DNA from: Brevibacillus agri
Lineage (GTDB): Bacteria; Bacillota; Bacilli; Brevibacillales; Brevibacillaceae
NCBI RefSeq assembly: GCF_004117055.1
Contig: NZ_CP026363.1
Coordinates: forward strand, 788,001-852,000
Direction of reading: 5' to 3'
DNA length: 64,000 bases
In this document: piece by piece, positions 5,696 to 33,934 of the stretch
How the letters are laid out: each line of letters opens with the position of its first letter
Numbering within the stretch: the stretch's first letter is position 1
The notes under the pieces: model-generated
Told to the model about the DNA's origin: nothing
Seen by the model: the letters and a program-made list of their open reading frames with translations, nothing else
The model's database searches: none
Translations under genes and position numbers: made by a program

Positions 5696-6886
5696 TTAGC
5701 CCGCGATTCGACTGCGATGCTTCATCAGATACAGCAGAAAAGCCAGAAGCAGCAACCCTTGGGCGACGATAGCAACGGAGATGGAGGCGCCCAGGAATAC
5801 GACCAGGTAGTAAATCCCCGACCCGGCAGCCATCAAAAAGTTTTCGATAAAATTTTGAATCGCAATCGTCTTGCCGGAGCCGACCATCTTTTTGCCCTCG
5901 TCCTGCAAGATCGTATTCATCGGAATGATGAACACCCCGCCCATGAACCCGACCAGAAGCAGCAGGCAGATCGCAATGACTGTCACGTGAATCCACGGAA
6001 ACAACACGATGATGAGAAACATGCCGAAGCCGTAGCCGACTGAGCGGGTGAACCGGGACAGCGGAATCAGCCGCGGGGCGAGAAAAGCGCCGATGATGAT
6101 CCCGATTGACGTCGTAGCCAGGATCAGCGAGACGGAAAAGCTTTGCGGGTTAATCCCGAGTGCGGCGGGTATCCAGGCCAGCACGGCGACCCGCAGCACA
6201 GCCGAGCTCATCCAGAAGGCCCCGGTTCCGATCAGCGCAAAGCTCGTTTCCGCACGGTTCATCAGGTGCTGGAAGTCGATGAAAAAGCGGCGTGCTTCCG
6301 TACCGTAACGAATCGAGGCGTTCCCCCGGATGCGCGGGATGAAAAAGGTCATGCCCAGCGACAACAGGTAGAGGGCAAGACAGATGCTCGAAGAGAACAG
6401 CGGCGCTGTCATGGAGGCGATCGCTCCGCCCCCGCCGATTCCGGTCAAGATCGCGACGATCGTGTACGCCTCAATCCGCGCGTTGGCCTGGAACAGCTCC
6501 TGTTCATTGCGAGTCAGCTCCGGCAGGATGCCGTACTTGGCAGGCGAGTAGACAACCGCGCCGACCCCCACCGTAAAGTAGCAGAGCATCAACAGCAAAA
6601 TGCTGGAGTGATCGATGACGAACAGCAGCACGACACCGAGTGCTTTTATCAGGTTGCCGATCACCAGAACGAACGATTTGGCGTGTTTGTCGGCAAAAGG
6701 CCCGACGAGCGGAGCGAGAAAAACGTACGGCAGAAAAAAGGAAATGGAAACGAGTGCGAGCATTGCGGGAGAAAAGCCGTTCTCCCGCAGCAGGTTGGCA
6801 ATGACAAACAAAATCATGTTGTCGGCAAAGGCCGAGAGAAATTGCGTGAAATACAAGGCTTGCAGCGGTTGTAGTCGCATCTTCAC
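5696..6886 (-). CDS. lplT: MFS transporter, lysophospholipid flippase-like (LplT type)
   Basis: About 396 residues and ten to twelve membrane segments. It starts at GTG 6886 (GGAGG eight bases upstream, inside the end of aas); ATG 6880 is an alternative. The N-terminus (LQALYFTQFLSAFADNMILF) and the early loop GPFADKHAKSF are typical of the MFS branch that contains LplT. In proteobacteria LplT moves lysophosphatidylethanolamine inward so that Aas can re-acylate it. Translational coupling to an Aas homologue here supports the same job. The substrate is inferred from family and context. Confidence 0.8.
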   Translation of the reverse strand: MKMRLQPLQALYFTQFLSAFADNMILFVIANLLRENGFSPAMLALVSISFFLPYVFLAPLVGPFADKHAKSFVLVIGNLIKALGVVLLFVIDHSSILLLMLCYFTVGVGAVVYSPAKYGILPELTRNEQELFQANARIEAYTIVAILTGIGGGGAIASMTAPLFSSSICLALYLLSLGMTFFIPRIRGNASIRYGTEARRFFIDFQHLMNRAETSFALIGTGAFWMSSAVLRVAVLAWIPAALGINPQSFSVSLILATTSIGIIIGAFLAPRLIPLSRFTRSVGYGFGMFLIIVLFPWIHVTVIAICLLLLVGFMGGVFIIPMNTILQDEGKKMVGSGKTIAIQNFIENFLMAAGSGIYYLVVFLGASISVAIVAQGLLLLAFLLYLMKHRSRIAG

Positions 6887-6887
6887 A

Positions 6888-8996
6888 TCAGTTTCCTCCA
6901 CTTTCCGCCAGTTGCTTCAGACTGACGTAGTCCGTTTTTCCGCTCCCGAGAAGTGGCAGAGTTTTGATGACCTGCATCGTGCCGGGAATGAGCAGCGGCG
7001 AGTATTGCTTTTCCGTCAAATACGCGCGCAGTTGACTGAGCTGAACGGTTTCATCTGTAGTAAACAACAGGACGCGCTCGCCTTTTCGCTGGTCGTTGAC
7101 GGTGATCGCGGCAAAGCCGGAGTGACCGAAGCATTGCATTGCCAGCTCTTCCACCAGATTGAGCGACACCATCTCGCCGCCGATTTTGGCAAAACGTTTC
7201 AGGCGAGACTGAATGCTGAGAAAGCCTTCCTTGTCAGCCGTCACCAGATCGCCTGTGTGGTACCATTCCCCGGCGGGCACGAAGCCTTTGCCGTGAATCA
7301 GGTAGCCTTTCATGACGTTCGGGCCTTTGACGAGCAGCTCTCCGCCTTCGTCAATGCCTGCGACCGGGTCCAGCCGATAGCTCATGCCGGGCACGAGTCG
7401 ACCTACTGTTCCAGGCTTGTTGGCGAGCGGCGTGTTGAGCGCGAGAATCGGAGCGGTTTCGGTCGCGCCGTAACCTTCGAAAATCCGCACGCCGAACTTA
7501 TCCATCCACAGCTTGCGCACATCGTCCTTCAGCTTTTCTGCGCCTGCAAACACGTAGCGCAAAGAGTAGAAGTTGTACGGGTGCGCCATCCGTCCGTAGC
7601 CAGCCATGAACGTCGAAGTCCCGAACAAAATGGTCGCGTTCTGATCGTACACCAGCTCCGCAATCGCCTTGTAGTGCAGCGGGCTCGGATACAGATACAC
7701 CGGAATGCCCTTGATGATGGGCAAAAGCGTGCCAGCAGTCAGTCCGAAGCTGTGAAACATCGGCAGCGCGTTGAAAAACTTGTCGCGGCTCGTAATGTCG
7801 ATCATGCTGGTCACTTGCTGGATGTTGGCGTACAGATTGGTGTGCGTCAGCACGACGCCTTTTGGCTTGCTTTCGCTGCCGGAGGTGAACAGAATCAGTT
7901 CATTGGCACTCTTCGCGGCTTTTTTCTTTGTCATATACGCGGTGAGGGCAGCCAGCTTGTCAAAAGCGGTGGCCGATGCTTTCAAATCTTCCAGGTAAAT
8001 AATCTGGATGCTCGGCGAAAGGCCCGCGATAATGTGCTCCAGCTTGCCTTTTTCGATGAAGGCGCGCGAGGTCAGGATCGTATCGATACGGGCTGTCTCG
8101 CAGCAGTCGAGCAGCGAACGGATGCCGAGCGAAAAGTTCAGGATTGCAGGTGTTTTCCCGATGCAAAACAGCGCCAGCAAAGTAACCAGGTGCCCGACCG
8201 AGTTGGGGAGTAATACGCCGACGACCGGTTTCCCCATTAAGGGCTGTTGCAGTTTGTTGCCGAGCAGATAGCTGCCGATGAGCAGGGTGCGGTAATTGAT
8301 GGCCGAGGTCAAGTCTTTGGCGATCTCCATTTTCGGCCCGTTAAGGCGGGCGGCTGCCAGCGCTTCATCGAACAGGTTGACGTTTTGCTTCATCCGGCTT
8401 TGGAACAGCTCCTCCTGCATCGTGCGCAGGATCAGGTCGTTGGCGGCCGTCTTTTGTTCACGCATCGAGCGGTTTTCGTCGCGCGGGATGGTGAACGGCG
8501 TGCCGACTGTCATGGTGACGGCAGGAAACAGCGAGCGGCGCAGCTTGCCTTGCAAATAAGAGAAGATCGAGCGCTCCAGGCCGTTGATCGCGATCGGGTA
8601 GACGGTTGCGCCTGTTCTCATGGCGAGGTAGCCGACGCCGCTGTAAATTTTCATCAGGCCGCCCGTTGTGGTGATGCGGCCTTCCGGGAAAATCACCAGC
8701 GTCTCTCCTTTGCGGATGACCCGCAGCATGTGGCGGATCGAGTACGGGTTGAGCGGATCGATCGCGATGTGCTTGCGGAAGCGCAGGAAAAAGGCAAACC
8801 GCTTGGCGATCCCGGTGTTGACGACAAAGGTAGCTCCCGTAGGCAAGCAAAAGGAAAGGAGTACCGCGTCGAGCAGGGAGACGTGATTGGGAATGATAAG
8901 TGACGGCTTCGTCAGGTCGATTTTGTTTACACCGTGAATGCGAGGCCGAAACCACAGCAGCAAAATCATTTTCAGGAAGGCATGAATGAGGACCAT
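6888..8996 (-). CDS. aas: Bifunctional acyltransferase / acyl-ACP synthetase (Aas type)
   Basis: 702 residues from ATG 8996, chosen because AAAAGGTG lies just upstream; GTG 9005 overlaps that site. Residues 1-200 are a PlsC-like acyltransferase with NHVSLLD (37-43; the family usually has NHxxxxD) and FPEGR (103-107). From about 215 on it is an AMP-forming acyl-CoA/ACP synthetase with the P-loop-like FTSGSESKPKG, YGATET and the C-terminal lysine domain (LLGSGKTDY). Known role: uses acyl-ACP to re-acylate lysophospholipids at the inner membrane. Forms an operon with lplT. Confidence 0.85.
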   Translation of the reverse strand: MVLIHAFLKMILLLWFRPRIHGVNKIDLTKPSLIIPNHVSLLDAVLLSFCLPTGATFVVNTGIAKRFAFFLRFRKHIAIDPLNPYSIRHMLRVIRKGETLVIFPEGRITTTGGLMKIYSGVGYLAMRTGATVYPIAINGLERSIFSYLQGKLRRSLFPAVTMTVGTPFTIPRDENRSMREQKTAANDLILRTMQEELFQSRMKQNVNLFDEALAAARLNGPKMEIAKDLTSAINYRTLLIGSYLLGNKLQQPLMGKPVVGVLLPNSVGHLVTLLALFCIGKTPAILNFSLGIRSLLDCCETARIDTILTSRAFIEKGKLEHIIAGLSPSIQIIYLEDLKASATAFDKLAALTAYMTKKKAAKSANELILFTSGSESKPKGVVLTHTNLYANIQQVTSMIDITSRDKFFNALPMFHSFGLTAGTLLPIIKGIPVYLYPSPLHYKAIAELVYDQNATILFGTSTFMAGYGRMAHPYNFYSLRYVFAGAEKLKDDVRKLWMDKFGVRIFEGYGATETAPILALNTPLANKPGTVGRLVPGMSYRLDPVAGIDEGGELLVKGPNVMKGYLIHGKGFVPAGEWYHTGDLVTADKEGFLSIQSRLKRFAKIGGEMVSLNLVEELAMQCFGHSGFAAITVNDQRKGERVLLFTTDETVQLSQLRAYLTEKQYSPLLIPGTMQVIKTLPLLGSGKTDYVSLKQLAESGGN

Positions 8997-11373: not shown

Positions 11374-14055
11374 GTGGTGAAACGAGTCGATTTCATTTAC
11401 CAGAAGCTGCTTGAGTCCGGTCCCGATAAAAAAATCAGCGCAGGCGAGCTGGCCGAGCTCCTGGGCCTTAGCCGCGCCAATGTCAGCAGCGATTTGAACC
11501 GCTTATGGAAGGAAGGCCGCATTGAAAAAGAAGAGGGGCGTCCTACCTTGTTTTATGTCAAAAAAGCGAATGACTCGCTTTATTTGGCGCAAACGGCATT
11601 GGACAGGCTGGCGAAGACGAACAAAAGCCTGATTACCCGCATCGAGCAGGCAAAGGCAGCGGTGCTGTACCCGCCGCGCGGGATGCACTGCCTGATTTTG
11701 GGCGAAACGGGAGTAGGCAAGTCGTGGTTTGCGGGGATGATTCACGAGTTTGCCGTCGATATTGGCCGGCTGGACAAGGGGGCGCCCTTTGTCGTTTTTA
11801 ACTGCGCCGACTACGCCAACAACCCGCAGCTTTTGATAAGCCAACTGTTCGGCGTCAAAAAAGGGGCGTACACCGGAGCGGAGATGGACCGCAAAGGGCT
11901 GGTGGAAAAGGCGGACGGCGGGATTCTTTTTCTCGATGAGGTTCACCGCTTGCCAGCAGAGGGGCAGGAAATATTTTTTACGTTCATGGACAAAGGGACG
12001 TTCCGCCGGGTCGGAGAAACAGAGGTAGAGCGTTCCGCGCAGGTGCAAATCGTCATGGCAACGACCGAAAACCCGGAATCCAGCCTGCTCAAGACGTTCA
12101 TGCGCCGCATCCCGATGGTCATCAAGCTGCCCTCCCTGGTGGAGCGGGGGATGGAGGAGCGCTTGGGGCTTGTCATGGAAATTTTTCGCGAAGAAGCGTT
12201 TCGGCTGGGACGGGAAATTCAGGTATCGGCAAGCGTGGTGCAAGCGTTTCTCTGCTATCATTGCCCGAACAATATCGGCCAGTTGAAGACGGATATCCAA
12301 CTGACCTGCGCCAGCGCTTATGCCGAGTTTATTTCCTTGAAAAAAAATCTGCTGCACGTCTCGATTCAGGACGTTCCGCATCACGTCAAGCAAGGGCTGC
12401 TTTTGGCAAAAGACTACCGCCAGGAGCTGGAGGAGCTGATTGGCACCGAGCACAAATGCTTTGTGGTGCAGCCGTCCGAGGAAAGCATCTGGTTTGGCGG
12501 CGAGTCGGAGAATGCCGCCGACAGCGTCTACGAAAAGATCGAGCAAAAAATATACGAGTTGCAAAACCAGGGGGTCAGCGAGGAAGAACTGGAATTTGAT
12601 ATCGAGCATTACTTCACCACGTTTATCAAAGGGGTTCATCAGCGCATCAACAAAGGCGACATGGCGCGGATTATTGATCCGATCATCATTCACCTCGTCG
12701 AAGACATCGTGCGCTATGCCGAGGCGAAGCTAGAGAAAATTTTGAGCCAAAAGGTCATCTTCGGCCTGGCGCTGCACATCCAGACGTCCAAGGAGCGGCT
12801 GTCGCAAGGAAAGCAAATCGTCCATCCGCACATCAACAGCGTGCGGCTCAAATACAAAAAGGAGTTTGCCGTAGCGCTGGAGTGCGTGCGCATGATCGAG
12901 GAAGCGCTGCTGATGGACTTGCCCATTGGCGAAGCGGGCTACCTGACCATGTTTTTCGTGCTGGATGACGAGAGCATGCAGGAGGAGCGGGAAACGATCG
13001 GTGTCCTGGTCATCACGCACGGCAGCGGGGGAGCGACGGCGATGGTCGACGTGACCAACCGCCTGCTGGTCACCCAATACGCGCGTGCCATCGACCTGCC
13101 GCTGGAGGAAGACTCGCTGGTCGTCCTGGAGCAAGCGATCAAGACAGCGCGGGAAATCGGGAGCGCAGCCGGGCTGCTTTTGCTCGTCGACATGGGCTCG
13201 CTGCTTGGATTCGGGGAGATCATCGAAAAGGAGCTGGGCATTCCGGTGAAGGTGGTGCCGATGGTGAGCACTCCGCATGTGATCGAGGCGACGCGCAAAG
13301 CGATGCTGGGGCATTCGCTGGACGAAGTGTACCGCGATGTCGTCGGCATTTCGATGGGGCAGCGGGAGGAGTTACCCAAAGAGGTGGCAGACAAGGCGGT
13401 GCCTGCCTTGACGATCGTAGCGGCCTGCCTGTCCGGCGAGGGCAGCGCGCTGTTTTTGAAAAAGCTGCTCGAATCGAAGCTGCGCTACGACGAGAAGCTG
13501 CTGGAATTTGTTCCGCTGCAGCTCATGGACAAAGCGCAGGCGAAAAGCCGGTTGAAAAAGCTCAAGGAAGAGCGGACGGTTCTGTGCGTCGTGAGCAACT
13601 ACATGCTGGATCGCGACTTGCGCTGCCACAGCATGGACGATGTGGTGAACGGCGAGGCGCTGTCCGATATCCAGCAGTTGATCGATCTGGAAGAAGCTTA
13701 TGTGAAGATGAAGGAATCGCTCAGGGAGCACCTGAAAATGGTGAGGGGCCAAGACGTTCTCGACGACGTCAGGACGTGTGTGGCGCGCATGGAGGAGCGG
13801 CTTGGCAACAAGCTGGTTTTCGATACGCGAATCGGGGCGTATTTGCACATCTGCTGCCTGGTGGATCGGCTGAAAGCCGGGGAGCGTTCCGTAGCCTATA
13901 CCGACAAGGTGCCGTTTTTGGCGGAAAACCGCAAGCTGTACAGCCTGATTCGCCATGAGTTGCAGCCGTTGGAGGACAAATACGACGTGGTCTTCAGCGA
14001 GGACGATGTATGCTTCGTCATGAATTTTTTCATACACAACAAAACACTGGCGTAG
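11374..14055 (+). CDS. LevR-type sigma-54 transcriptional activator with PRD and PTS domains
   Basis: 893 residues from GTG 11374 behind GGCAGGTG. Order: N-terminal winged HTH (residues 5-65); AAA+ domain with Walker A GETGVGKS (110-117), sigma-54 contact loop GAYTGA (164-169) and Walker B ILFLDEVHR; PRD1 (about 430-540); EIIA-Man-like domain (VLVITHGSGGATAMV, near 555); a connecting EIIB-like region; PRD2 (about 790-890). By family knowledge such proteins activate sigma-54 promoters of PTS operons and are tuned by HPr- and EII-dependent histidine phosphorylation. The PTS operon at 14261, which has a matching promoter, is the obvious target. Confidence 0.93.
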   Translation: MVKRVDFIYQKLLESGPDKKISAGELAELLGLSRANVSSDLNRLWKEGRIEKEEGRPTLFYVKKANDSLYLAQTALDRLAKTNKSLITRIEQAKAAVLYPPRGMHCLILGETGVGKSWFAGMIHEFAVDIGRLDKGAPFVVFNCADYANNPQLLISQLFGVKKGAYTGAEMDRKGLVEKADGGILFLDEVHRLPAEGQEIFFTFMDKGTFRRVGETEVERSAQVQIVMATTENPESSLLKTFMRRIPMVIKLPSLVERGMEERLGLVMEIFREEAFRLGREIQVSASVVQAFLCYHCPNNIGQLKTDIQLTCASAYAEFISLKKNLLHVSIQDVPHHVKQGLLLAKDYRQELEELIGTEHKCFVVQPSEESIWFGGESENAADSVYEKIEQKIYELQNQGVSEEELEFDIEHYFTTFIKGVHQRINKGDMARIIDPIIIHLVEDIVRYAEAKLEKILSQKVIFGLALHIQTSKERLSQGKQIVHPHINSVRLKYKKEFAVALECVRMIEEALLMDLPIGEAGYLTMFFVLDDESMQEERETIGVLVITHGSGGATAMVDVTNRLLVTQYARAIDLPLEEDSLVVLEQAIKTAREIGSAAGLLLLVDMGSLLGFGEIIEKELGIPVKVVPMVSTPHVIEATRKAMLGHSLDEVYRDVVGISMGQREELPKEVADKAVPALTIVAACLSGEGSALFLKKLLESKLRYDEKLLEFVPLQLMDKAQAKSRLKKLKEERTVLCVVSNYMLDRDLRCHSMDDVVNGEALSDIQQLIDLEEAYVKMKESLREHLKMVRGQDVLDDVRTCVARMEERLGNKLVFDTRIGAYLHICCLVDRLKAGERSVAYTDKVPFLAENRKLYSLIRHELQPLEDKYDVVFSEDDVCFVMNFFIHNKTLA

Positions 14056-14203: not shown

Positions 14204-14220
14204 TTGGCACGTGACTTGCT
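14204..14220 (+). promoter_or_regulatory. Sigma-54 (-24/-12) promoter of the chitobiose-type PTS operon
   Basis: TTGGCACGTGACTTGCT fits the sigma-54 consensus TGGCACG-N4-TTGC[A/T] at every conserved position, with GG and GC at the correct spacing. It is 40 bases upstream of the IIB gene and directly downstream of a sigma-54 activator gene. Confidence 0.9.
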
Positions 14221-14563: not shown

Positions 14564-14575
14564 AGGGGGATGCGT

Positions 14576-15919
14576 ATGGCAGGGTTTATTTCTTTTCTGG
14601 AAGACCGCGTGATGCCTGTCGCGGGCAGGATCGCGGAGCAGAAGCATTTGCAGGCGATTCGCGACGGAATCATTCTTACCATGCCTTTGCTCATTATCGG
14701 CTCTCTTTTCCTCATCATCGGTTTTATTCCCATCCCTGGTTACAGCGAATTCATGAGCGGAATCTTCGGCGATCAATGGCTGACCAAGCTGTTGTATCCG
14801 GTGAACGCGACGTTTGACATCATGGCGCTCATCGTCAGCTTCGGGGTGGCGTACCGATTGGCGGAAAAGTACAAGGTCGATCCGCTGTCAGCAGGTGCGA
14901 TCTCGGTCGCTTCCTTTTTGCTCGCGACCCCTTACAAGACGATGTTCACCCCGGAAGGTGCAACGGCAGCCCAAGAGGTAGGCGGAGTCATTCCTGTCGC
15001 CTTGATGGGAAGCCAAGGGCTGTTCGTAGCGATGCTTTTGGCCGTGTTGTCCACGGAGATTTACCGCAAAATCATTCAAAAGAAAATCGTCATCACAATG
15101 CCGGACGGGGTTCCGCCTGCTGTCTCCCGTTCTTTCGTGGCGCTGATTCCCGCTTCGGCCGTGCTGCTGGTCGTCTGGTTGCTGCGCATCCTGATTGAAA
15201 ACACCTCGTTTGAAAGCATCCACAACATCGTGTCTGACTTGCTGGTCGGTCCGCTGAGCGCGCTCGGCAGCAGTCTGATCGGAGCGATTGTCTGCGTGCT
15301 GCTCGTCCAACTGCTTTGGTCGCTCGGCCTGCACGGAGCGGCGATTGTCGGCGGTATCATGAGCCCGATCTGGCTCACCTTGATGGACCAAAACCGGGCG
15401 GCGTTCCAGGCGAATCCGAATGCCGAACTGCCCAACGTGATTACCACCCAGTTTTTCGACCTGTGGATTTATGCGGGCGGTTCCGGCGCGACGCTGGCGC
15501 TCGTCGTCCTGATGCTGTTTCGGGCGCGCAGCGAGCAGATGAAAAACATCAGTCGGCTCTCCATCGGCCCTGGCCTGTTCAACATCAACGAGCCTGTCAC
15601 CTTCGGCATGCCGATCGTCATGAACCCGCTTTTGATTATTCCGTTTATCCTCGCCCCAGTCGTGCTGGTCATTGTCAGCTATGTGGCGATGTCGCTGGGA
15701 TGGGTAGCAAAGCCGAGCGGTGTCGCTGTACCGTGGACGACTCCGGTCATTATCAGCGGATATTTGGCTACTGGCGGGAAGCTTTCGGGCAGCGTGCTCC
15801 AACTCGTGAACTTCGTCATCTCGCTGTTGATCTACTACCCGTTCTTCCGTCTGTGGGATAAGCAAAAGTTGAACGAGGAACAGGCGCATGCCGCTTCCGA
15901 CAAAGTCGTAAATATGTAA
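14576..15919 (+). CDS. chbC: PTS EIIC permease, lactose/cellobiose (chitobiose) family
   Basis: 447 residues. ATG 14576 is preferred over 14570 because of its spacing to GAGGGGG. About ten membrane segments. Family landmarks include the N-terminal helix FLEDRVMPVAGRIAEQKHLQ, SLGLHGAAIVGGIMSPIWL with the conserved His, and the NINEPVTFGMPIVMNPLL loop typical of the celB/chbC family. It transports and phosphorylates a beta-linked disaccharide in the membrane. Seven codons separate the IIB stop from this gene. Confidence 0.92.
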   Translation: MAGFISFLEDRVMPVAGRIAEQKHLQAIRDGIILTMPLLIIGSLFLIIGFIPIPGYSEFMSGIFGDQWLTKLLYPVNATFDIMALIVSFGVAYRLAEKYKVDPLSAGAISVASFLLATPYKTMFTPEGATAAQEVGGVIPVALMGSQGLFVAMLLAVLSTEIYRKIIQKKIVITMPDGVPPAVSRSFVALIPASAVLLVVWLLRILIENTSFESIHNIVSDLLVGPLSALGSSLIGAIVCVLLVQLLWSLGLHGAAIVGGIMSPIWLTLMDQNRAAFQANPNAELPNVITTQFFDLWIYAGGSGATLALVVLMLFRARSEQMKNISRLSIGPGLFNINEPVTFGMPIVMNPLLIIPFILAPVVLVIVSYVAMSLGWVAKPSGVAVPWTTPVIISGYLATGGKLSGSVLQLVNFVISLLIYYPFFRLWDKQKLNEEQAHAASDKVVNM

Positions 15920-24650: not shown

Positions 24651-24992
24651 TTAGCTGTCAGGAAAGACGCGCGAACGCGTAAGGAAGCGCACTCCTTCTG
24701 GCCCCTCAAGCGAGAACATGCCGCCGCGGCCTTCGACTACATCAATAATGAGCTGGGTATGCTTCCAATACTCGTACTGTGCTTTGCCCATGTAAAACGG
24801 GCAGCCGCCGATCTCACCCAAGAGCACATCCTGATCGCCGACGAGAAACTCGCCGAGCGGGTAGCACATGGGAGAGCTGCCGTCGCAGCAGCCCCCTGAC
24901 TGGTGAAACATCAAGTCGCCATGCTTGGCGCGCAGCCGTTCGATCAACTGCAGGGCAGCATCGGTAGCGAGCACTTTCTCAGGCTGGCTCAT
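24651..24992 (-). CDS. DUF779 family protein
   Basis: 113 residues from ATG 24992. Signature FHQSGGCCDGSSPMCYP with clustered cysteines and GCPFYMGKAQYEYWKHTQLI, as in DUF779 proteins that are habitually encoded after acetaldehyde or aliphatic aldehyde dehydrogenases. Biochemical function unknown; the cysteines suggest metal binding or help to the dehydrogenase. Separated from the ALDH gene by three bases, so certainly co-transcribed. Confidence 0.88.
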   Translation of the reverse strand: MSQPEKVLATDAALQLIERLRAKHGDLMFHQSGGCCDGSSPMCYPLGEFLVGDQDVLLGEIGGCPFYMGKAQYEYWKHTQLIIDVVEGRGGMFSLEGPEGVRFLTRSRVFPDS

Positions 24993-24995
24993 CGA

Positions 24996-26516
24996 TCAAA
25001 AGAAGCCCAGTGCCTGGTCGCTGTAGCTGACCAGCAGGTTTTTGGTTTGCTGATAGTGAGAGAGCATCATTTTGTGTGTTTCGCGACCGATACCGGACAT
25101 TTTGTATCCGCCGAACGCAGCGTGCGCAGGGTAAGCGTGGTAGCAGTTGGTCCATACGCGGCCAGCCTGGATTTCGCGGCCCATGCGGTAGGCAGTGTTC
25201 ATATCGCGTGTCCATACGCCGGAGCCGAGACCGTACAAGGTGTCGTTGGCGATGGAGAGCGCTTCTTCCGTGTCTTTGAAGGTCGTCACGGAGACTACCG
25301 GACCAAAGATTTCTTCCTGGAAGATGCGCATTTTGTTGTGGCCCTTGAACACGGTCGGCTGGATGTAGTAGCCGCCTTCGAGATCGCCCTCAAGCTGCGC
25401 ACGCGCGCCGCCGATCAGGCAATCTGCGCCTTCCTGCTTGCCGATGTCGAGGTAGGAGAGAATTTTTTCCACTTGCTCCAGGGAAGCTTGGGCGCCGATC
25501 ATTGTTTCTGTATCGAGCGGGTTGCCCTGCTTGATGCTGGCAACGCGTTTCAGGGCGCGCTCCATGAATTGATCGTAAATGCTTTCGTGAATGAGGGCGC
25601 GGGACGGGCACGTGCAAACCTCGCCCTGGTTGAGCGCAAACAGCACGAAGCCTTCGATGGCTTTGTTGAGGAACGCGTCGTCTTTTGCACACACATCCGG
25701 GAAGAAGATGTTCGGAGATTTTCCGCCCAGCTCCAGCGTCACCGGAATGATGTTTTGGGAAGCGTATTGCATGATGAGACGTCCGGTTGTCGTCTCACCC
25801 GTAAAGGCGATTTTGGCGATGCGGTTGCTCGATGCCAGCGGTTTACCCGCTTCCAGACCGAAGCCGTTTACGACGTTGACGACGCCTGGAGGCAGCAAGT
25901 CGCCAATCAGCTCCATCAGCACCATGATCGAAGCAGGTGTTTGCTCGGCAGGCTTGAGCACGACGCAGTTTCCTGCGGCCAGGGCCGGGGCCAGCTTCCA
26001 CGTCGCCATCAGGAGCGGGAAGTTCCACGGAATGATCTGTCCGACGACTCCGAGCGGCTCATGGAAGTGATAAGCAACCGTGTCGTTGTCGATCTCAGCG
26101 AGAGAGCTTTCTTGTGCGCGGATAGCTCCGGCGAAGTAACGGAAATGGTCGATAGCGAGCGGAATGTCAGCAGCCAGCGTCTCGCGGACGGGCTTGCCGT
26201 TTTCCCATGTCTCGGCAGTCGCTAAAAGCTCCAGGTTGGCTTCCATGCGGTCTGCGATTTTCAGGAGGATGTTGGAGCGTTGTGTAACCGAGGTGCGTCC
26301 CCAAGCAGCTTTTGCCTCGTGGGCGGCGTCCAGTGCGAGCTCGATGTCTTCTGCCGTCGAACGGGCAACCTCGCAAAAGACCTTGCCGTTTACAGGAGAG
26401 ACGTTTTCAAAATATTCACCCTTCACTGGCGGTACCCAATTGCCACCAATGTAGTTGTCGTAGCGAGTCTTGAAAGTCACCTTGGATCCGGCTTGGCCGG
26501 GTTGAGCATAGATCAT
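24996..26516 (-). CDS. NAD-dependent aldehyde dehydrogenase (acetaldehyde DH / AcoD-like)
   Basis: 506 residues. ATG 26516 is chosen for GGAGG eight bases upstream; the open frame runs further but without a site. The catalytic Cys is in [14 protein letters not shown] (near 300), the general base Glu in LELGGKSPN, and [20 protein letters not shown] lines the cofactor channel. It oxidises acetaldehyde or a similar small aldehyde to the acid in the cytoplasm. Followed by DUF779. A sigma-54 promoter with paired activator sites lies upstream, so control by an AcoR-type activator is likely. Confidence 0.92.
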
Positions 26517-26564
26517 GCGAGCGCCTCCTCTTATATCACCTTTTTCTTTACAACCTTCTCTAAA

Positions 26565-26580
26565 AGCAAATCCTGTACCA
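26565..26580 (-). promoter_or_regulatory. Sigma-54 promoter of the ALDH-DUF779 operon
   Basis: Minus strand TGGTACAGGATTTGCT. GG and GC sit at -24/-12 spacing and TTGCT is perfect; one change from TGGCAC. It is about 50 bases upstream of the ALDH start. Confidence 0.8.
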
Positions 26581-26633
26581 AACGCCGGAAGGCTTGAAAT
26601 GACAGCGTTTTCGCAGACGAAACACGCCAAAAA

Positions 26634-26672
26634 TGTTCCAAAATGGAGCAGGCATTGTTCCGTTTTGGGACA
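26634..26672 (-). promoter_or_regulatory. Two tandem activator half-palindromes (TGTTCC-N5-GGRRCA)
   Basis: TGTTCCAAAATGGAGCA (26634-26650) and TGTTCCGTTTTGGGACA (26656-26672) are near-palindromes of one design, with centres 22 bases apart and 55-100 bases upstream of the sigma-54 promoter. They are best explained as binding sites for a sigma-54 enhancer-binding protein, probably the AcoR-like protein at 29030. Confidence 0.7.
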
Positions 26673-26740
26673 GTTTGCAATAATTTTGGGAGCATCTGAC
26701 AAATATCTGCTTTTTGCGCGAGGCTTCGCAGTAATCGCCT

Positions 26741-27205
26741 ATTGAAAGCCTACGGTTTTCAGCGTGGGAGGAAAGACGGCTTTGCCCGAACACCCCTCAT
26801 AGGATGGGCAGGGCAAACACACAGGACCTGTGCGAGTGCTTTTCTTTTTATTTGGCTCTGTTGAATTTTAATGTTGTTTTAAATGCAAAAAAATAAACTG
26901 ATTTTTCTGAGCTGAATTCCGCTTTCAAATGACTAAAGAACGGAATGACCTACAAAGGTAGTTCCATGCGTTAAGCTAACCAGTGAGGCAAGTCATGCAG
27001 CTTATGGCAAACGAGTCGATCCATGTAAAGCCGTTGTCTAACCGTCCATTTTCTCGTAAACGCTATATAAAAAGGCTAACGTTAGACTCTTGTCCTTTCG
27101 CCACTGACTAGTCCCGGACCAATCAACTTACTATTCTTCATAGGAGAAAAGGGGGGACAAGGGACGGAATGAATAGTTTTCCCAACCGAATATGCTTTTC
27201 TATAA
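26741..27205. other. IS debris between the ALDH promoter and the AT-rich island
   Basis: 26750-26830 resembles the hairpin end of an IS200/IS605-type element (GCCTACGGTTTTCAGCGTGG). 26895-26975 matches, inverted, the IS4-type 3' end at 3528-3590. On the minus strand just upstream (about 27040-26974) a frame ends in RQRLYMDRLVCHKLHDLPHW, possibly a transposase C-terminus. No intact gene. Confidence 0.5.
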
Positions 27206-27206
27206 A

Positions 27207-27236
27207 GAAAAAAACGGAATCGCGTACAGGATTCCG
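27207..27236 (-). terminator. Terminator of the 91-aa membrane protein gene
   Basis: On the minus strand CGGAATC pairs with GATTCCG (27215-27236), followed by a T-run (27207-27214). Confidence 0.75.
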
Positions 27237-27255
27237 AATGATTTGTTCTATATAC

Positions 27256-27528
27256 TTAGGGCTCGATTTTCTTCTTTAGGATGTTAATCTGTTTAGATTC
27301 TTTCGGATTATCTATGTAGTAGATCTCCTGAGCACCTGCGTTATAGATCCATAGGTCACCTTGAGCAGTAGTCGTGACGTGGACTAATCCACTCCCGTTC
27401 TCATCCCTAAAAAAGACCCTGTAGTCCTGTAGAGATTCACTTGTTTGTGCCGTAGAAATTATTGCCCAAGTTAAAGACCCAGCAACAAAAGCCGAGACGA
27501 TCAACAAAACTCCTTGCAACTTAGACAT
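27256..27528 (-). CDS. Small membrane-anchored or secreted protein, unknown function, 90 aa
   Basis: ATG 27528 is chosen for AAGGAGG at a good distance. It begins MSKLQGVLLIVSAFVAGSLT, one hydrophobic helix. The rest is a small polar domain with several aromatic residues (DYRVFFRDENGSGLVHVTTT, GDLWIYNAG). No family recognised. AT-rich codons like the rest of this island. Confidence 0.6.
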   Translation of the reverse strand: MSKLQGVLLIVSAFVAGSLTWAIISTAQTSESLQDYRVFFRDENGSGLVHVTTTAQGDLWIYNAGAQEIYYIDNPKESKQINILKKKIEP

Positions 27529-27639
27529 AAACAGCCTCCTTCGTATAGAGCAAGTCATTCATTCAAAACAGAAGCAAAAGGATTTATACAAAAAATTAAA
27601 GAAGAGTAACATTATGCTACTCTTCCATATAATTGTATA

Positions 27640-28328
27640 TTACTTGAAATCTCTAGACCATTCAATATAATGGGTAGGTTCAGTATAAGATCCAGTATAC
27701 GTATTAGTTACTTTTCCAGTAAGCCAGTTAATCTCATCTACTTTCCAAGTTCCTCTGTCATAGAATCCTGTCCAATAATAAATTCTTGAAACATATGATG
27801 AACTTTCGGCTGGTCCAGTCCAAGTTTCTTCTGTTGTGTATGTTGTCGATATCTCTGTAGTCAAAGTGCTTTCTACTTCTTCGCCGACGGATGCTGGGCC
27901 ATTCCCAACAGAAACACTAGCTTTAACTCTTGCTGAGGAATTTACTTTCTTTGCTTGGGTCGTAGTAAGTTTAATTGTCTTCCCTTTGGAACAGAAATAA
28001 TTTGCACTGCTGCTGTAGGGTTATTGGAACTTTCTACCCGCTTAACTACATCAGATAGGTACATTGGTTTTATTTTGTCATCAGTGTTTTTACCAACTTT
28101 ATGAATAGTTATACTTTTAGCATCTCCAGCTTGCTCTACTATTTGTTCGATTTGCTCTTTTGTGACCATGCCTTGGGCTTCTTCGGCGATGTTTACAACG
28201 ACCTCTTGATCTTCGGCGCCAAGGAGTTTCAGTGACTCACTATAATCTTCTTTTGCAAACGAAAGGGATGGCAACATAGCCAGTAGACTTAATGTGCATA
28301 AAATAGCAATTGATTTTTTCTTAAACAC
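27640..28328 (-). pseudogene. Secreted-protein gene split by a one-base deletion
   Basis: The frame from ATG 28328 gives a signal peptide (MFKKKSIAILCTLSLLAMLP, then SFAKE) and about 100 mature residues, but it runs off after SVPKGRQ near 27985. One extra A in GGGAAGACA would restore PKGKTIKLTTTQAKKVNSSA and join it to the frame ending at 27640 (YWTGFYDRGTWKVDEINWLT). The restored protein would be about 229 residues. Family unknown. Sequencing error and true mutation cannot be told apart here. Confidence 0.65.
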
Positions 28329-28449
28329 AGTTCAATCACTCTTATTTTTTGGTATATAACAACATTATATCTTATTGGTAAATTTGTAAATATTTTCTTA
28401 TATTTTGTTTTATGTTCTGTTTAATATGAATTATTTGTATAATCCATCA

Positions 28450-28821
28450 ACCATATCACTAGCTAGTCGTCACATCGTCCATACAGTCATTCAGGAAGGC
28501 GTGTCGATCATCAAACTTGAGCGACTAGAGAATATTCGCAAGACGGCAAGAACAAGCCGTAAAAACGCCAAGAATCTGCATAGTTGGACGTTCTATCAGC
28601 TTCAACAATTCATCTCCAATAAAGCAACCCTTGTAGGCATACAAGTTGTGGAGGTCAATCCTGCCTACACTTCTCAAACTTGTCCTGTCTGCGGGGAGAA
28701 GAATAAAGCGAAAGACAGAAGATACGAATGTTCATGCGGATTCAAAACGCATCGTGATCGGGTTGGAGCGATCAATATCATACGTCAACCTGTGACAGAT
28801 GGTAACAATCTGTCAGCCTAA
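28450..28821 (+). pseudogene. TnpB (IS605/IS607 OrfB) C-terminal fragment
   Basis: Readable from SLASRHIVHTVIQEGVSIIK. It contains the RuvC-like Glu in IKLERLENIR, the zinc finger CPVCG...CSCG and the final RuvC Asp in THRDRVGAINI. The N-terminal two-thirds, with the first catalytic Asp, is missing. Such nucleases are the RNA-guided relatives of Cas12; this fragment is inactive. Confidence 0.85.
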
Positions 28822-28987
28822 GATGCTAGAGGCACTGTCTTAGGACGGGCTGATGAGACAGCCCTGAACTTGGGGGAACTACGGATAGCAGAAATGTACT
28901 TCCGACTACCACCCAAGAATCCACCCAAGAATCCCACTGATACCGAAAGGCTTCAGCTTGCGGCTTTAGCCGTGGGAGTCTCAATCA
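28822..28987 (+). mobile_element. Right-end region of an IS605-type element (possible omega-RNA region)
   Basis: Downstream of the tnpB fragment there is a conserved-looking non-coding stretch that ends in a stem (GCTTGCGGC/GCTTTAGCCGTGGGAG), typical of IS200/IS605 right ends. In active elements this region encodes the guide RNA of TnpB. A 12-bp duplication (CCACCCAAGAAT, twice) lies inside it. The element abuts the promoter region of the next gene. Confidence 0.5.
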
Positions 28988-29029
28988 TGCTATACTGATA
29001 GAGAATGATTTTTGAGGGAGGGAAGAGTG

Positions 29030-30805
29030 TTGTCAACGATTGTCCAGCAATCTTGGAAGCGCTGCCAGGAATCGAACCTCAAAGCTTGGGAGAAAGCCAA
29101 TGACCAGATCATTTCCAGCAAACGAATCAAAGAAATCATTCAGGAAAATCACCCTCTGATTCAAGAAAGCCTCCCGCTCTTCAACAAGCTTGCTCCTTTT
29201 TTGCTGTCGACAGAGCATATCGCTTTGCTGTCGGATCGGGATGGCAATATCATTCACACCGTCGGGGACCCTGTGTTTGCCAATCAGGCGCAAAAGGTGC
29301 AACTGCAGATCGGGGCGAACTGGACGGAGGATTACAAAGGAACCAATGCGATAGGAACGGCGCTGATCGCGCAGCAGCCGATCTCCGTGCAGGGCGACCA
29401 GCATTACTTTTTGGAGAACCGCTTTCTTTCCTGCTCGGCGGCGCCGATTTTTTCACCGACGGGCGAGCTGCTTGGCGTCATCGACATCAGCACGCGCAAG
29501 GAGTACACGCATCCGTTTGCCTTGACGATTGCCTGCATGATTGCGGAAGCCCTGCAAAATCGCTTTCTGTATGCCAACGCCGAGCGGGTCATTGCCCTGC
29601 CCGGCAGCACGGCCGTGAAAAGCAGCCAGGGAAAAGTGCCGCTCGTAGCTCTCGACAGGGACGAGCGGATCGTGGGCTTGAACGAATTGGCCAAGCAGCG
29701 GCTGGGAAAAGACGCTTTGGGAACGCGGCTGTCCCCGGAGCAGGAGCGCGCCGGACGGGATGTGCAGGATAACCGCCAGCGTTTCTGGGGGGCGCAAGCT
29801 GCAACAGACGGTGCTTCCAGGAACGCTGCGGCTGCCCCAAACCAAAAGCCGATGCCTGCACTCAAGCCGTTTCCGCGTCTCGCCGGATCGTGCCCGCTCT
29901 TTTTGCAGGCGAAAATGCTCGGGCAAAAGGCGGCGCAGGTTGATTTTCCCGTGCTGATTCTCGGCGAGAGCGGCACCGGAAAAGAGCTGTTCGCACAGAT
30001 GGTTCACGAGACAGGGCCGCGAGCGCAGGAGCCTTTTATCGCCGTGAACTGCAGTGCAATTTCAGAAAATTTGATCGAAAGCGAATTGTTCGGATACGAA
30101 AGCGGGGCGTTTACCGGGGCCAATCGCGAAGGAAGAATCGGCAAGTTTGAAGCGGCGAAGAAAGGGACGATCTTTTTGGATGAGATCGGGGACATGTCTT
30201 TGCGCGGACAGGCCGCTCTGCTGCGCGTGTTGCAGGAAAAGGTCGTCACGCCTGTAGGCAGCAACCAGTCGCGGCCGATTCATGCGCGGATCATCGCCGC
30301 CACGCACCGCAATTTGCCGGAGGAAATCAGGGCGGGGCGTTTTCGGGCGGATTTGTACTACCGGCTCAAAAGCGTCTCCATCCACCTGCCGCCGCTGCGC
30401 AAGCGAAGCGACATCGTCCAACTGGCCGAACATTTGATGCAGCAAATCGCCATGGGACAGCCATACGTCTTGCTCCCGGAGGCAAAAGCAAAGCTCGCCG
30501 CCTACTCCTGGCCGGGCAACGTTCGCGAGTTGCAGGGCGTGCTGGTGCAGGCTGCCTTTTTGTCCGACGGCGGGGAGATTGGCGAGGAGCACATCCAGCT
30601 TGAAGGCTTGACCGGAGAGGCGGAGCCTGTGCATGCGGTCCCATCCTTGCGGGAAACCGAGCTTGTGGCGATCAAGCGGGCGCTTGATTCGAGCGGAGGC
30701 AATGTGAGCCGGGCCGCCAAGCTGCTGCAAATCGGGCGAAACACCTTGTACCGCAAAATGGCGGAATACCATCTGACAGCGCCCGTCAACCAGGAGGAAC
30801 CATGA
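29030..30805 (+). CDS. Sigma-54-dependent activator, AcoR-like (GAF, AAA+, Fis-HTH)
   Basis: 591 residues. TTG 29030 is chosen because GGAGG ends seven bases upstream; GTG 29027 is the alternative. An N-terminal AcoR-type region with a GAF-like sensor ([16 protein letters not shown] to [10 protein letters not shown], about 70-170), a linker, an AAA+ domain with GESGTGKE (near 320), [15 protein letters not shown] (intact GAFTGA), Walker [12 protein letters not shown], and a Fis-type HTH at the end ([20 protein letters not shown]). AcoR-type proteins switch on aldehyde and acetoin catabolism, which fits the ALDH operon 2.5 kb away. It overlaps the next activator gene by four bases. Confidence 0.9.
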
Positions 30806-32664
30806 TCGCCCTGTACAGGCTGGATAAGGAGCTGGAGCGGAAAATGACCGCGCTGCTGGAAAACAGCGGGCAAAACATCGGATATTTTTACTCGATCAAA
30901 TCCATTCTCGACCAGATGATGAACCCGTTTGTCGCCATCACTACAGAAAAATACAGCGAGGAGCTGGAGGCGCTCTCGTTGCCCGTCGTCAGCCTGTCGA
31001 TAGACATGAATGACGTGCGCCGGGCTATCGCAACGCTTCCGGAGGAAGGGCGGGGCCACAAGGTCGTCGTGGTGTGCGCCACGCAAAAAGAAAAAAGCTG
31101 GTTGCAGCAGGAGTACGCTCTGGAAGAGGGGCAACCGCAGCCAGACTGCACGTTTCTCTGCGCAAAAGAGCTGGCGTATCCGCAGGAGCAGGCCGTCTAT
31201 CTCGTGCCGATCTGGAACCGCCATGCTTTTGCGCTGCACCCGGCCTCGCAGCAGTGGCATCCCGTCGAGCCTTCGCTCGCCACCCTGCGCAAAGCGGTGC
31301 AGCAGGCAGCCTCGCTGGTCACTTACACAAAGGAGCGGCTGCGCGAAAAGCATCAGATGGAAGCCGTCGTAAACTCGGCCCATGACGCGGTGATCGCCGT
31401 CGATCGGCACAGTCAGATTACGCTGGTCAACGAGCATGCCAAAATGCTGCTGGGGCTGTCAGGAGATGTGCTGGGCAAACCGATCACGGACTACATCCCG
31501 CACTCTGACATGCTGCGCGTGCTGAAGACGGGCAGGGAGGAACTGGGCGAAATCGCGACGGTGCGCGACCGTTCCATCGTCATCAATCGCATTCCGGTGA
31601 TCGTCAAGGATCAGGTTGTGGGGGCGGTGTCCAACTTCAAGGAAATCATCGACATTCAGAAGATGGAGATGACGCTGCGCAAAAAGCTGCACGACAACGG
31701 ACTGTCAGCCAGATACCGCCTGGACAGCATCGTCGGCTCCTCGCCTGCCATCCTCGAAACGAAGGAGCAGGCGGCGCTGTTTGCGAAAACGAACGCGACC
31801 GTGCTGATTACAGGGGAATCGGGAACGGGCAAGGAGCTGTTTGCCCAAGGCATCCACCTGGAAAGCGGACGCGCTGTCGGGCCGTTTTTGGCGGTGAACT
31901 GTGCGGCGCTCCCGGAGGGGCTTCTGGAGAGCGAGCTGTTCGGCTACGAGGATGGCGCTTTTACAGGGGCGAAAAAGGGCGGCAAGCCGGGCTTGTTCGA
32001 GCTGGCGCACGGAGGCACGCTGTTTTTGGACGAGATCGGGGAGATGCCGCTGCGCATTCAGGTGCTCTTGCTGCGCGTCCTGCAGGAGAGGCGCGTGCGT
32101 CGCGTCGGCGGCGAAAAAGTGATTCCCGTCGATGTACGGATTGTCGCGGCGACGAATCGCGAGCTGGCCAAGGAGATCGAGAAGGAGCAGTTTCGCGCCG
32201 ATCTCTACTACCGCATCAACATGCTCAGGCTCGATGTCCCTCCGTTGCGGGAGCGCCTGAGCGACATTCCGCTGCTGGTCGAGAGCATGATTCGCGAGAT
32301 GAACGAGCAGCACGAGAAAAAGATCAAGGAAGTCGATGAAGACATCTACCCGCTGTTTCAGAGTTACTCGTGGCCAGGCAATGTGCGGGAGCTGAGAAAT
32401 GTCGTCGAGCGGATGGTGCTGCTGGCAAAAGGGGGAAGAATCGGCAAGGAGGACGCAGGCTTTTTGTTCGCGAGGCAAAAGGGAGGGCACGACGGCAGGC
32501 TGCCCGTGCCGCCGGAAGCAAGCGAAGCAGAGCGGAACCCCGAAGCGCAGCAAATTGCCAGCGCGCTGCAGCAGACGAGATACAACAAGACTCTTGCGGC
32601 AAAGGCATTGGGCATGGATCGAACTACACTGTGGCGGAAAATGAAACAGTATCGTCTGGAGTGA
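30802..32664 (+). CDS. Sigma-54-dependent activator, PrpR-like (PAS, AAA+, Fis-HTH)
   Basis: 620 residues from ATG 30802 (ATGA overlap with the previous gene). The N-terminal 180 residues resemble the PrpR-type sensor; then a PAS domain ([20 protein letters not shown] to [11 protein letters not shown]), AAA+ with GESGTGKE, the GAFTGA loop ([11 protein letters not shown]), [30 protein letters not shown], and a Fis HTH ([20 protein letters not shown]). Likely controls the operon starting 190 bases downstream, whose promoter fits sigma-54. The inducer is unknown; a hydroxy-acid or a product of it is a fair guess. Confidence 0.9.
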
Positions 32665-32665
32665 G

Positions 32666-32698
32666 CAAAGTGTTGCAACGTTGTGTTGCAACACTTTG
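32666..32698 (+). promoter_or_regulatory. Perfect 14-bp inverted repeat, candidate activator site
   Basis: CAAAGTGTTGCAAC (32666-32679), five bases, GTTGCAACACTTTG (32685-32698). It contains the word TGTTGCAAC twice. Just after the activator gene and about 90 bases before the sigma-54 promoter. It could also be a terminator, but no good T-run follows. Confidence 0.65.
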
Positions 32699-32786
32699 TT
32701 GTTTTATGAGGGAGGAAGCATCGAGACGGCGTGGACAGTCGAGACAAAATGTAAGCGTTTTACCGCGTTAACGCGATTGCACCTGC

Positions 32787-32803
32787 TTGGCATCAAACGT
32801 GCA
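32787..32803 (+). promoter_or_regulatory. Sigma-54 promoter of the hydroxy-acid operon
   Basis: TTGGCATCAAACGTGCA has GG and GC at the exact -24/-12 spacing; TTGGCA and TGCA match the consensus. It lies about 55 bases before the first gene. Confidence 0.8.
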
Positions 32804-32857
32804 TTTACTATCTGGTGCATATAGTCAAAAAATTTAGATCATTTAGGGGGGAGTCGA

Positions 32858-33934
32858 TTGCTTCACTATTCGATTGCAGTCATTCCGGGAGACGGTATTG
32901 GTCCAGAGGTGATGGACGAAGGCTTGAAGGTTTTGGCGGCGCTGGAAGAAGCGCACGGCGGGATTCGCTTTACCCGTGACGTCATGGACTGGAACTGCCA
33001 GTACTACCTCACGCATGGCAGGATGATGCCGGAAAATGGACTACATACATTGAAGGACTACGATCTGATCTTGCTGGGAGCTGTCGGGGCGCCGGAAGTA
33101 CCGGATCACGTGTCGGTGTGGGAGCTGATTTTGCCGATTCGCCGTGCCTTCCAGCAGTATGTGAACCTGCGGCCTGTCAAGCTGCTCAAAGGGTTGGAGA
33201 GCCCGCTGCGCTACAAAGGGCACGCCGATCTCGACTTCGTCGTCGTCCGGGAAAATACAGAGGGCGAGTATTCCAACATGGGCGGGCGGATGCACCAGGG
33301 GACGCCGTACGAGATGGCGGTGCAAAACAACGTATTTACTCGCTACGGCACCGAGCGCATTCTCAAATACGCGTACGCGCTGGCGGAAAAGCGGCCGAAA
33401 AAGAGCGTGACGGCGGCGACCAAGTCCAACGGCATCAACCATTCCATGCCTTTCTGGGATGAGATCGTCAAGGAAATCAGCCGGGAGCACCCAGACATTC
33501 AGACCAACCTGTATCATATCGACGCATTGGCCGCTTACTTTATCACGCGCCCGGAGACGTTTGACGTCGTGGTCGCCAGCAACCTGTTCGGAGACATTTT
33601 GACAGACCTTGGGGCAGCGATTGTCGGCGGCTTGGGGCTGGCACCGTCTGCGAACATCAATCCCGAGCGCAAATACCCGTCCATGTTTGAGCCGATTCAT
33701 GGCTCTGCGCCCGATATCGCCGGAAAAGGCATCGCCAACCCGATCGCACAGGTGTGGAGCCTCAGCATGATGATGGACCACCTCGACTTGCCGGATGCAA
33801 GCGCCGTCATTATGAACGCGATCGAACAAGTGCTGCAGGAGGGCAAGGTGCTGACGCCTGACCTCGGGGGCAAGGCGACGACAAAGGAAGTGGGAGACGA
33901 GCTTGTCCGGCACATCTACCTGGCAACCAGATAA
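32858..33934 (+). CDS. Tartrate / D-malate dehydrogenase-like enzyme (isocitrate/isopropylmalate DH family)
   Basis: 358 residues from TTG 32858 behind GGGGGGAG. Family markers: IAVIPGDGIGPEVM at the start, RENTEGEYSNMGGR for the substrate phosphate/carboxylate loop, VVASNLFGDILTDLGAAI with metal-binding aspartates, and EPIHGSAPDIAGKGIANP near the end. The length and the EYSNMGGR form fit the tartrate dehydrogenase/decarboxylase and D-malate dehydrogenase branch better than LeuB. NAD- and Mn/Mg-dependent oxidation of a 2-hydroxy-dicarboxylate. First gene of the operon. Confidence 0.85.
   Translation: MLHYSIAVIPGDGIGPEVMDEGLKVLAALEEAHGGIRFTRDVMDWNCQYYLTHGRMMPENGLHTLKDYDLILLGAVGAPEVPDHVSVWELILPIRRAFQQYVNLRPVKLLKGLESPLRYKGHADLDFVVVRENTEGEYSNMGGRMHQGTPYEMAVQNNVFTRYGTERILKYAYALAEKRPKKSVTAATKSNGINHSMPFWDEIVKEISREHPDIQTNLYHIDALAAYFITRPETFDVVVASNLFGDILTDLGAAIVGGLGLAPSANINPERKYPSMFEPIHGSAPDIAGKGIANPIAQVWSLSMMMDHLDLPDASAVIMNAIEQVLQEGKVLTPDLGGKATTKEVGDELVRHIYLATR

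Follow-up and report, generated by a model that had tools for sequence, protein, structure and literature searches.

The region upstream of an aldehyde dehydrogenase (ALDH)–DUF779 operon in Brevibacillus agri very probably holds the full set of cis-regulatory elements of an operon dependent on sigma-54, in which the product of the activator gene beginning at 29030 is predicted to bind both of two neighboring dyads (Table 1). The window analyzed here is a stretch of 64,000 nucleotides (G000:C1:788001-852000) from a 5.37-Mb genome on a single contig. Within it, the ALDH start codon (ATG) is preceded by a GAGGAGG ribosome-binding site, only 3 bp separate the ALDH stop from the DUF779 gene, and this linkage of the two genes was seen in all relatives fetched. 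The outcome is a defined single-target pair of activator sites for the GAF-type sigma-54 activators of operons that encode an acetaldehyde dehydrogenase of the ExaC type together with DUF779. The control region is real, but it is another example of a switch type that is already known; for ExaC–DUF779 GAF activators specifically, no description of activator sites was found in the literature searched (most subscription journals lay outside it), and the site pair for this activator group is apparently undescribed.

Table 1. Features of the ALDH–DUF779 control region and adjoining genes, in window positions; functional roles of the sites are predicted.
Feature	Position	Strand	Remarks
DUF779 protein	24651..24992	-	PF05610, 171 bits; operon gene 2
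Acetaldehyde dehydrogenase, ExaC type	24996..26516	-	NCBIfam NF050026 equivalog, 990 bits vs cut-off 900; Pfam Aldedh; operon gene 1
Sigma-54 (-24/-12) promoter TGGTACAGGATTTGCT	26565..26580	-	exact consensus TGGTAC-N5-TTGCT
Proximal activator dyad (UAS) TGTTCCAAAATGGAGCA (+ strand reading)	26634..26650	.	TGTTCC-N5-GGAACA, 1 mismatch; centre 26642, ~-88
Distal activator dyad (UAS) TGTTCCGTTTTGGGACA (+ strand reading)	26656..26672	.	TGTTCC-N5-GGAACA, 1 mismatch; centre 26664, ~-110
Insertion with IS200/IS605-type debris	26730..28978	.	missing at same place in B. gelatini (L031)
Extended -10 TGCTATACT of activator gene	28988..28996	+	same element conserved in relatives
Putative cognate activator	29030..30805	+	Pfam: GAF PF01590, AAA+ sigma-54 interaction PF00158, Fis-type HTH PF02954

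The promoter lies 48 bp ahead of the ALDH ATG, and its TGGTAC-N5-TTGCT sequence carries the GG-N10-GC core at -24/-12. Counting the second G of TGG as -24 places the expected transcript start near 26554, with a 5' leader of ~38 nt. One sigma-54 gene was found in the host genome (PF04552, 213 bits; C1:1172557-1173033). Both dyads are upstream of the -24 element, by 62 bp (proximal) and 84 bp (distal), and their centers fall within the ~80–150 bp ahead of the start expected of dyadic sites. The dyad itself is a 17-bp palindrome with the consensus TGTTCC-A(T/A)T(A/T)(T/C)-GGAACA over 54 dyads, among which G2, C5, and C16 are invariant; measured against this consensus, each window dyad is a decayed version of the same perfect palindrome. 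The initial annotation of this DNA had proposed the same elements, and we verified the promoter in sequence, coordinates, and exact spacing, as well as the two near-palindromes with centers 22 bp apart. Two of its details hold for the window only: the half-site GG(A/G)(G/A)CA does occur here, yet the consensus is GGAACA and two half-sites have mutated, while the 22-bp spacing is not fixed but varies from 21 to 24 bp in relatives.

Single elements of this kind occur at chance level in the window. Dyads with ≤2 mismatches numbered 15 against 15.7 expected from shuffles, and near-matches to the -24/-12 pattern numbered 4 against 3.9; lone dyads and lone -24/-12 elements were therefore excluded as evidence. 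The dyad pair behaves differently: when the 403 bp upstream were shuffled 200,000 times, a comparable pair (two dyads with ≤2 mismatches each, within 19–25 bp) never arose. When searched as the pattern TGTTCC-N5-GGNNCA-N3-8-TGNNCC-N5-GGNNCA, the pair had a single match in the host's 5.37 Mb and was present in 17 of the 60 relatives' genomes, always at the ALDH–DUF779 operon; among 398 Bacilli genomes it was confined to the same 17, all of B. agri's family. The initial annotation's description of the site pair as complete and specific thus holds, with one occurrence per genome, genome-wide uniqueness being in each case the result of pattern searches. Joining one dyad to the -24/-12 pattern gave 21 matches in the 60 genomes, 20 of them at the ALDH–DUF779 operon. 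The one extra match (G012:C4:1214713), considered as a further activator target, was taken as chance because its dyad half-sites are poor. A motif scan of viral contigs matched five stretches.

Comparison with relatives ties the sites to the activator gene. DUF779 operons of relatives were fetched, their genes were placed by tblastn, and 40 upstream regions, the window's included, were scored. An orthologue of the activator is divergent from ALDH in 26 loci of relatives, mostly 200–280 bp away, and two dyads plus a -24/-12 promoter were present in 27/27 activator-bearing loci (these 26 and the window); conversely, dyads and promoter were both missing in 12 of the 13 ALDH–DUF779 operons without a divergent activator. 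The association is strong (Fisher p ~2e-9, uncorrected for shared descent), though the 27 loci are not 27 independent observations because many are closely related. It also holds within genomes: three of them (G011, G022, and G032) have two ALDH–DUF779 operons each, with the sites only at the copy adjoining the activator. Geometry is kept as well. Centers are 22 bp apart in 21/27 loci and 21–24 bp apart in the remainder, and the distance from the proximal center to the -24 element (60–63 bp in all 27) is kept as tightly as the center spacing; the stretch from -12 to the ATG ranges from 36 to 62 bp. Across 11 divergent representatives, identity reached 80% in the dyad half-sites and 88% in the -24/-12 core, against 30% between the dyads, 35% from dyad to promoter, and 15% upstream; the combination of elements has been kept across at least four genera despite diverged flanks. 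The initial annotation had suggested looking for the dyads in relatives whose activator and ALDH genes are adjacent, and it is this search that found them in 27/27.

Translation of the activator gene probably begins at TTG 29030, which follows GAGGGAGGGAAG, rather than at the TTG 29012 of the mechanically called open reading frame. The protein has the domain set of a GAF-class (AcoR-like) bacterial enhancer-binding protein, with GESGTGKE (Walker A), a GAFTGA loop, and intact AAA+ and HTH domains, and its reading frame is intact (dN 0.034, dS 0.287 vs B. gelatini).

The initial annotation had the activator cut off from the operon by IS debris, and alignment with the nearest relative, B. gelatini, confirms this as an insertion missing there: the two sequences are collinear to 26729 and again from 28979, with 2,249 bp extra in the window. 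A genome-wide scan for close relatives had named only Brevibacillus, B. gelatini being the nearest. The extra DNA contains a truncated TnpB C-terminus (28405-28821) and two small unassigned ORFs (27256-27558 and 27942-28328), and similar GTGGGAG-type sequences stand at its ends (~26745-26772 and ~28949-28980). On one side of it the dyads survive, and on the other the extended -10 of the activator gene. Separations of a similar kind occur in five relatives' loci (L034, L035, L039, L045, and L050), where gaps near 980 bp include ~740 bp of other DNA between activator and dyads. In these loci, as in the host genome, the dyads remain with the ALDH gene; selection on the sites is therefore apparently tied to the ALDH promoter. 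In the two of these loci examined, a small ORF of ~133–143 aa (MKKFNVIVSSILLLAIAGHGGYRWVRYEML...) lies between activator and dyads (L034:8564-8995 and L045:7471-7872).

How else might the arrangement be explained? Chance matches to a -24/-12 element and to palindromes, ahead of a constitutively expressed gene, would agree with the chance frequency of each element alone in the window, but the comparative data refute this reading: the combination occurs only once in the genome and is kept across genera, which leaves coincidence a negligible probability. It is very unlikely, too, that some other regulator binds the dyads and that the divergent activator is a mere neighbor. Candidates for such a role would be an unrelated palindrome-binding repressor or a paralogue, the host genome having >20 other sigma-54 AAA+ activator genes (the nearest ~40% identical). 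One of these paralogues, a GAF activator at 3.148 Mb (L089; 37–40% identical), has a recognition helix (IGRNTVYRKL) nearly identical to that of the activator studied here and, judging from that helix, could bind the same dyads too. It is divergent from an ALDH–ADH pair (L089:7159-10758), and the intergenic region between them holds everted half-sites (GGAGCA-N2-TGTTCC). Against a foreign regulator, however, the sites are found only beside the divergent activator gene, even between operon copies of one genome, and the host genome has no second TGTTCC-N5-GGAACA pair.

The insertion suggests a different objection, namely that the circuit is broken, with relic sites, poor expression of the activator, and an operon that is uninducible or driven from elsewhere. 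We consider this unlikely. Although 2.25 kb now part the dyads from the activator's -10, the operon retains an undamaged promoter, dyad pair, and ribosome-binding site, the activator gene an intact frame and extended -10, and dN/dS relative to B. gelatini is low—albeit over a divergence that may mostly predate the insertion. Moreover, activators of this type work in trans, so the 2.25-kb insertion should not abolish activation; what it may remove is any feedback that the activator, once bound, exerts on its own promoter. Such natural separations of regulator and site offer material for testing trans action and autoregulation.

We thus favor an operon controlled by its divergent activator. For sigma-54 activators, ring assembly, DNA looping, and ATP-driven opening of the -24/-12 promoter are established, and the present case would follow the same course. 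Specifically, dimers of the activator would sit side by side on the same face of the DNA, at dyads separated by roughly two helical turns, and would thereby raise the local activator concentration at which the AAA+ ring assembles. The ring would then reach SigL-RNA polymerase at TGGTAC-N5-TTGCT by looping out ~60 bp and would open the DNA there at the expense of ATP. As the signal perceived by the GAF domain, acetaldehyde or a similar small carbonyl compound is most likely, in which case the dehydrogenase and DUF779 protein would be made when substrate appears. Binding, SigL use, and co-operativity we infer, and the inducer we infer from other systems only: the EatR and Ralstonia solanacearum ExaC systems discussed below make acetaldehyde, or a compound much like it, the most likely signal. 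In practical terms, the region is predicted to supply a compact SigL promoter, probably acetaldehyde-inducible, for Brevibacillus, a genus employed in protein secretion.

Two further loci in the window have sigma-54 features of their own. Between a PAS-AAA+-HTH activator (30802-32664) and a tartrate-dehydrogenase-like gene (32858-33934), the interval 32664-32858 holds TGGCATCAAACGTGCA and repeated GTTGCAAC palindromes (TGTTGCAACG / TGTTGCAACA, 13 bp apart); all 18 relatives examined likewise have a promoter-like element and one or more TGTTGCAACA-type sites. An exact -24/-12 element, TGGCACGTGACTTGCT, occurs at 14205-14220 (+) between a LevR/CelR-type activator (893 aa, 11374-14055) and a PTS EIIC gene (14570-15919), an arrangement that suggests a PTS operon controlled by sigma-54.

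Beyond the Bacilli, the same genes are carried by betaproteobacterial plasmids, whose operons we scanned for dyads with ≤4 mismatches. Similar dyads were present on a Comamonas plasmid (L111; TGTTCTGTGTTGGAACG, with the -24/-12 promoter TGGCATGGGTCTTGCA) and on a Caballeronia plasmid (L118; TGTTCCGAAACGGAACG, likewise with a -24/-12 promoter), and weaker ones on two further plasmids (L116 and L117). At this tolerance, the plasmid operons without convincing dyads were L109, L112, and L114; by host, convincing dyads were not found in Cupriavidus, a Comamonadaceae isolate, or Variovorax. With so mixed a scan, conservation beyond the Bacilli is suggestive only. Alphaproteobacterial plasmid operons were also scanned, and no dyads were found in them. 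There, ExaC–DUF779 is preceded by GAF or HTH genes (L120:1214-2170, L121:2243-3217, L122:2231-3199, and L125:2307-3275), whose products, at ~320 aa, are too short and so apparently lack an AAA+ domain.

A shortened activator also occurs in one Bacilli genome, at the locus L069. The divergent gene there (6798-7565, +) encodes 255 aa; compared with the sister genome L107, in which the activator frame is open over 677 aa, an in-frame deletion has removed the AAA+ core. Two dyads with a spacing of 19 bp remain at L069, as does a promoter-like element. The site pair might accordingly be imagined as an ancient one-target code for ExaC–DUF779, common to Bacillota and Betaproteobacteria, within which the activator of some lineages turned ATPase-less while using the same dyads. 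The Comamonas and Caballeronia dyads with their promoters, and the dyads kept at L069 beside the AAA+ deletion, hint at this, but as a reading of these sequences we regard it as doubtful.

The name AcoR needs care in this system. The initial annotation called the activator AcoR-like, which is apt for its domains, but the AcoR candidate is a different gene at an acoABCL-type operon. At C1:654.5 kb, a GAF activator (L090) that is 35–37% identical to the one studied here precedes a cluster of lipoyl-ligase, E1-alpha, E1-beta, E2, and E3 genes and is the better candidate. With that gene elsewhere in the genome, the activator at 29030 should not be called AcoR; we rejected the equation, the gene being linked in relatives to ExaC ALDH–DUF779 and not to acoABCL. 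Genes of such activators are readily mislabeled acoR, and the site pair permits their correct annotation.

Comparison with known systems leads to the same distinction. AcoR of Bacillus subtilis and B. thuringiensis resembles the present activator in its GAF-AAA+-HTH architecture, its use of SigL, and a palindrome that serves as its site ahead of a -24/-12 promoter, but its target is acoABCL, whereas here it is ExaC–DUF779. The AcoR sites reported for the two species, CAGTTTGAGAC and GACAAAACGAGACAGATGTCTCATTTTGTC (quoted in PMC12648084), do not match TGTTCC-N5-GGAACA. Clostridial AdhR, AorR, and others serve sigma-54 alcohol/aldehyde genes through palindromic TGT...ACA sites, with TGT and ACA 10–12 bp apart in 15 groups (PMC6615313); compared by site pattern, the dyads described here are TGT-N11-ACA with extended TGTTCC/GGAACA half-sites, and their target is ExaC–DUF779. 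Closer in gene content is R. solanacearum, a betaproteobacterial host, where the AcoR homologue Rsc3129 is predicted to drive the ExaC gene Rsc3128 from an RpoN promoter and where rpoN1 is required for growth on ethanol (PMC4676750); the likeness lies in an AcoR-like activator and ExaC under sigma-54. The closest known system is EatR (PA4021) of Pseudomonas aeruginosa, a sigma-54 activator that serves PA4022-eat-eutBC and is reported to sense acetaldehyde (PMC5821096, citing Lundgren et al., 2016). The EatR operon differs in carrying ethanolamine genes, and the excerpted account does not mention DUF779 (PMC5821096). Yet the gene for EatR, too, is divergent from an operon that has a -24/-12 promoter and begins with an ExaC-like, NAD-dependent acetaldehyde dehydrogenase gene (PMC5821096), and the Brevibacillus locus shares this arrangement, the likeness being one of gene order in relatives and of NF050026 membership.
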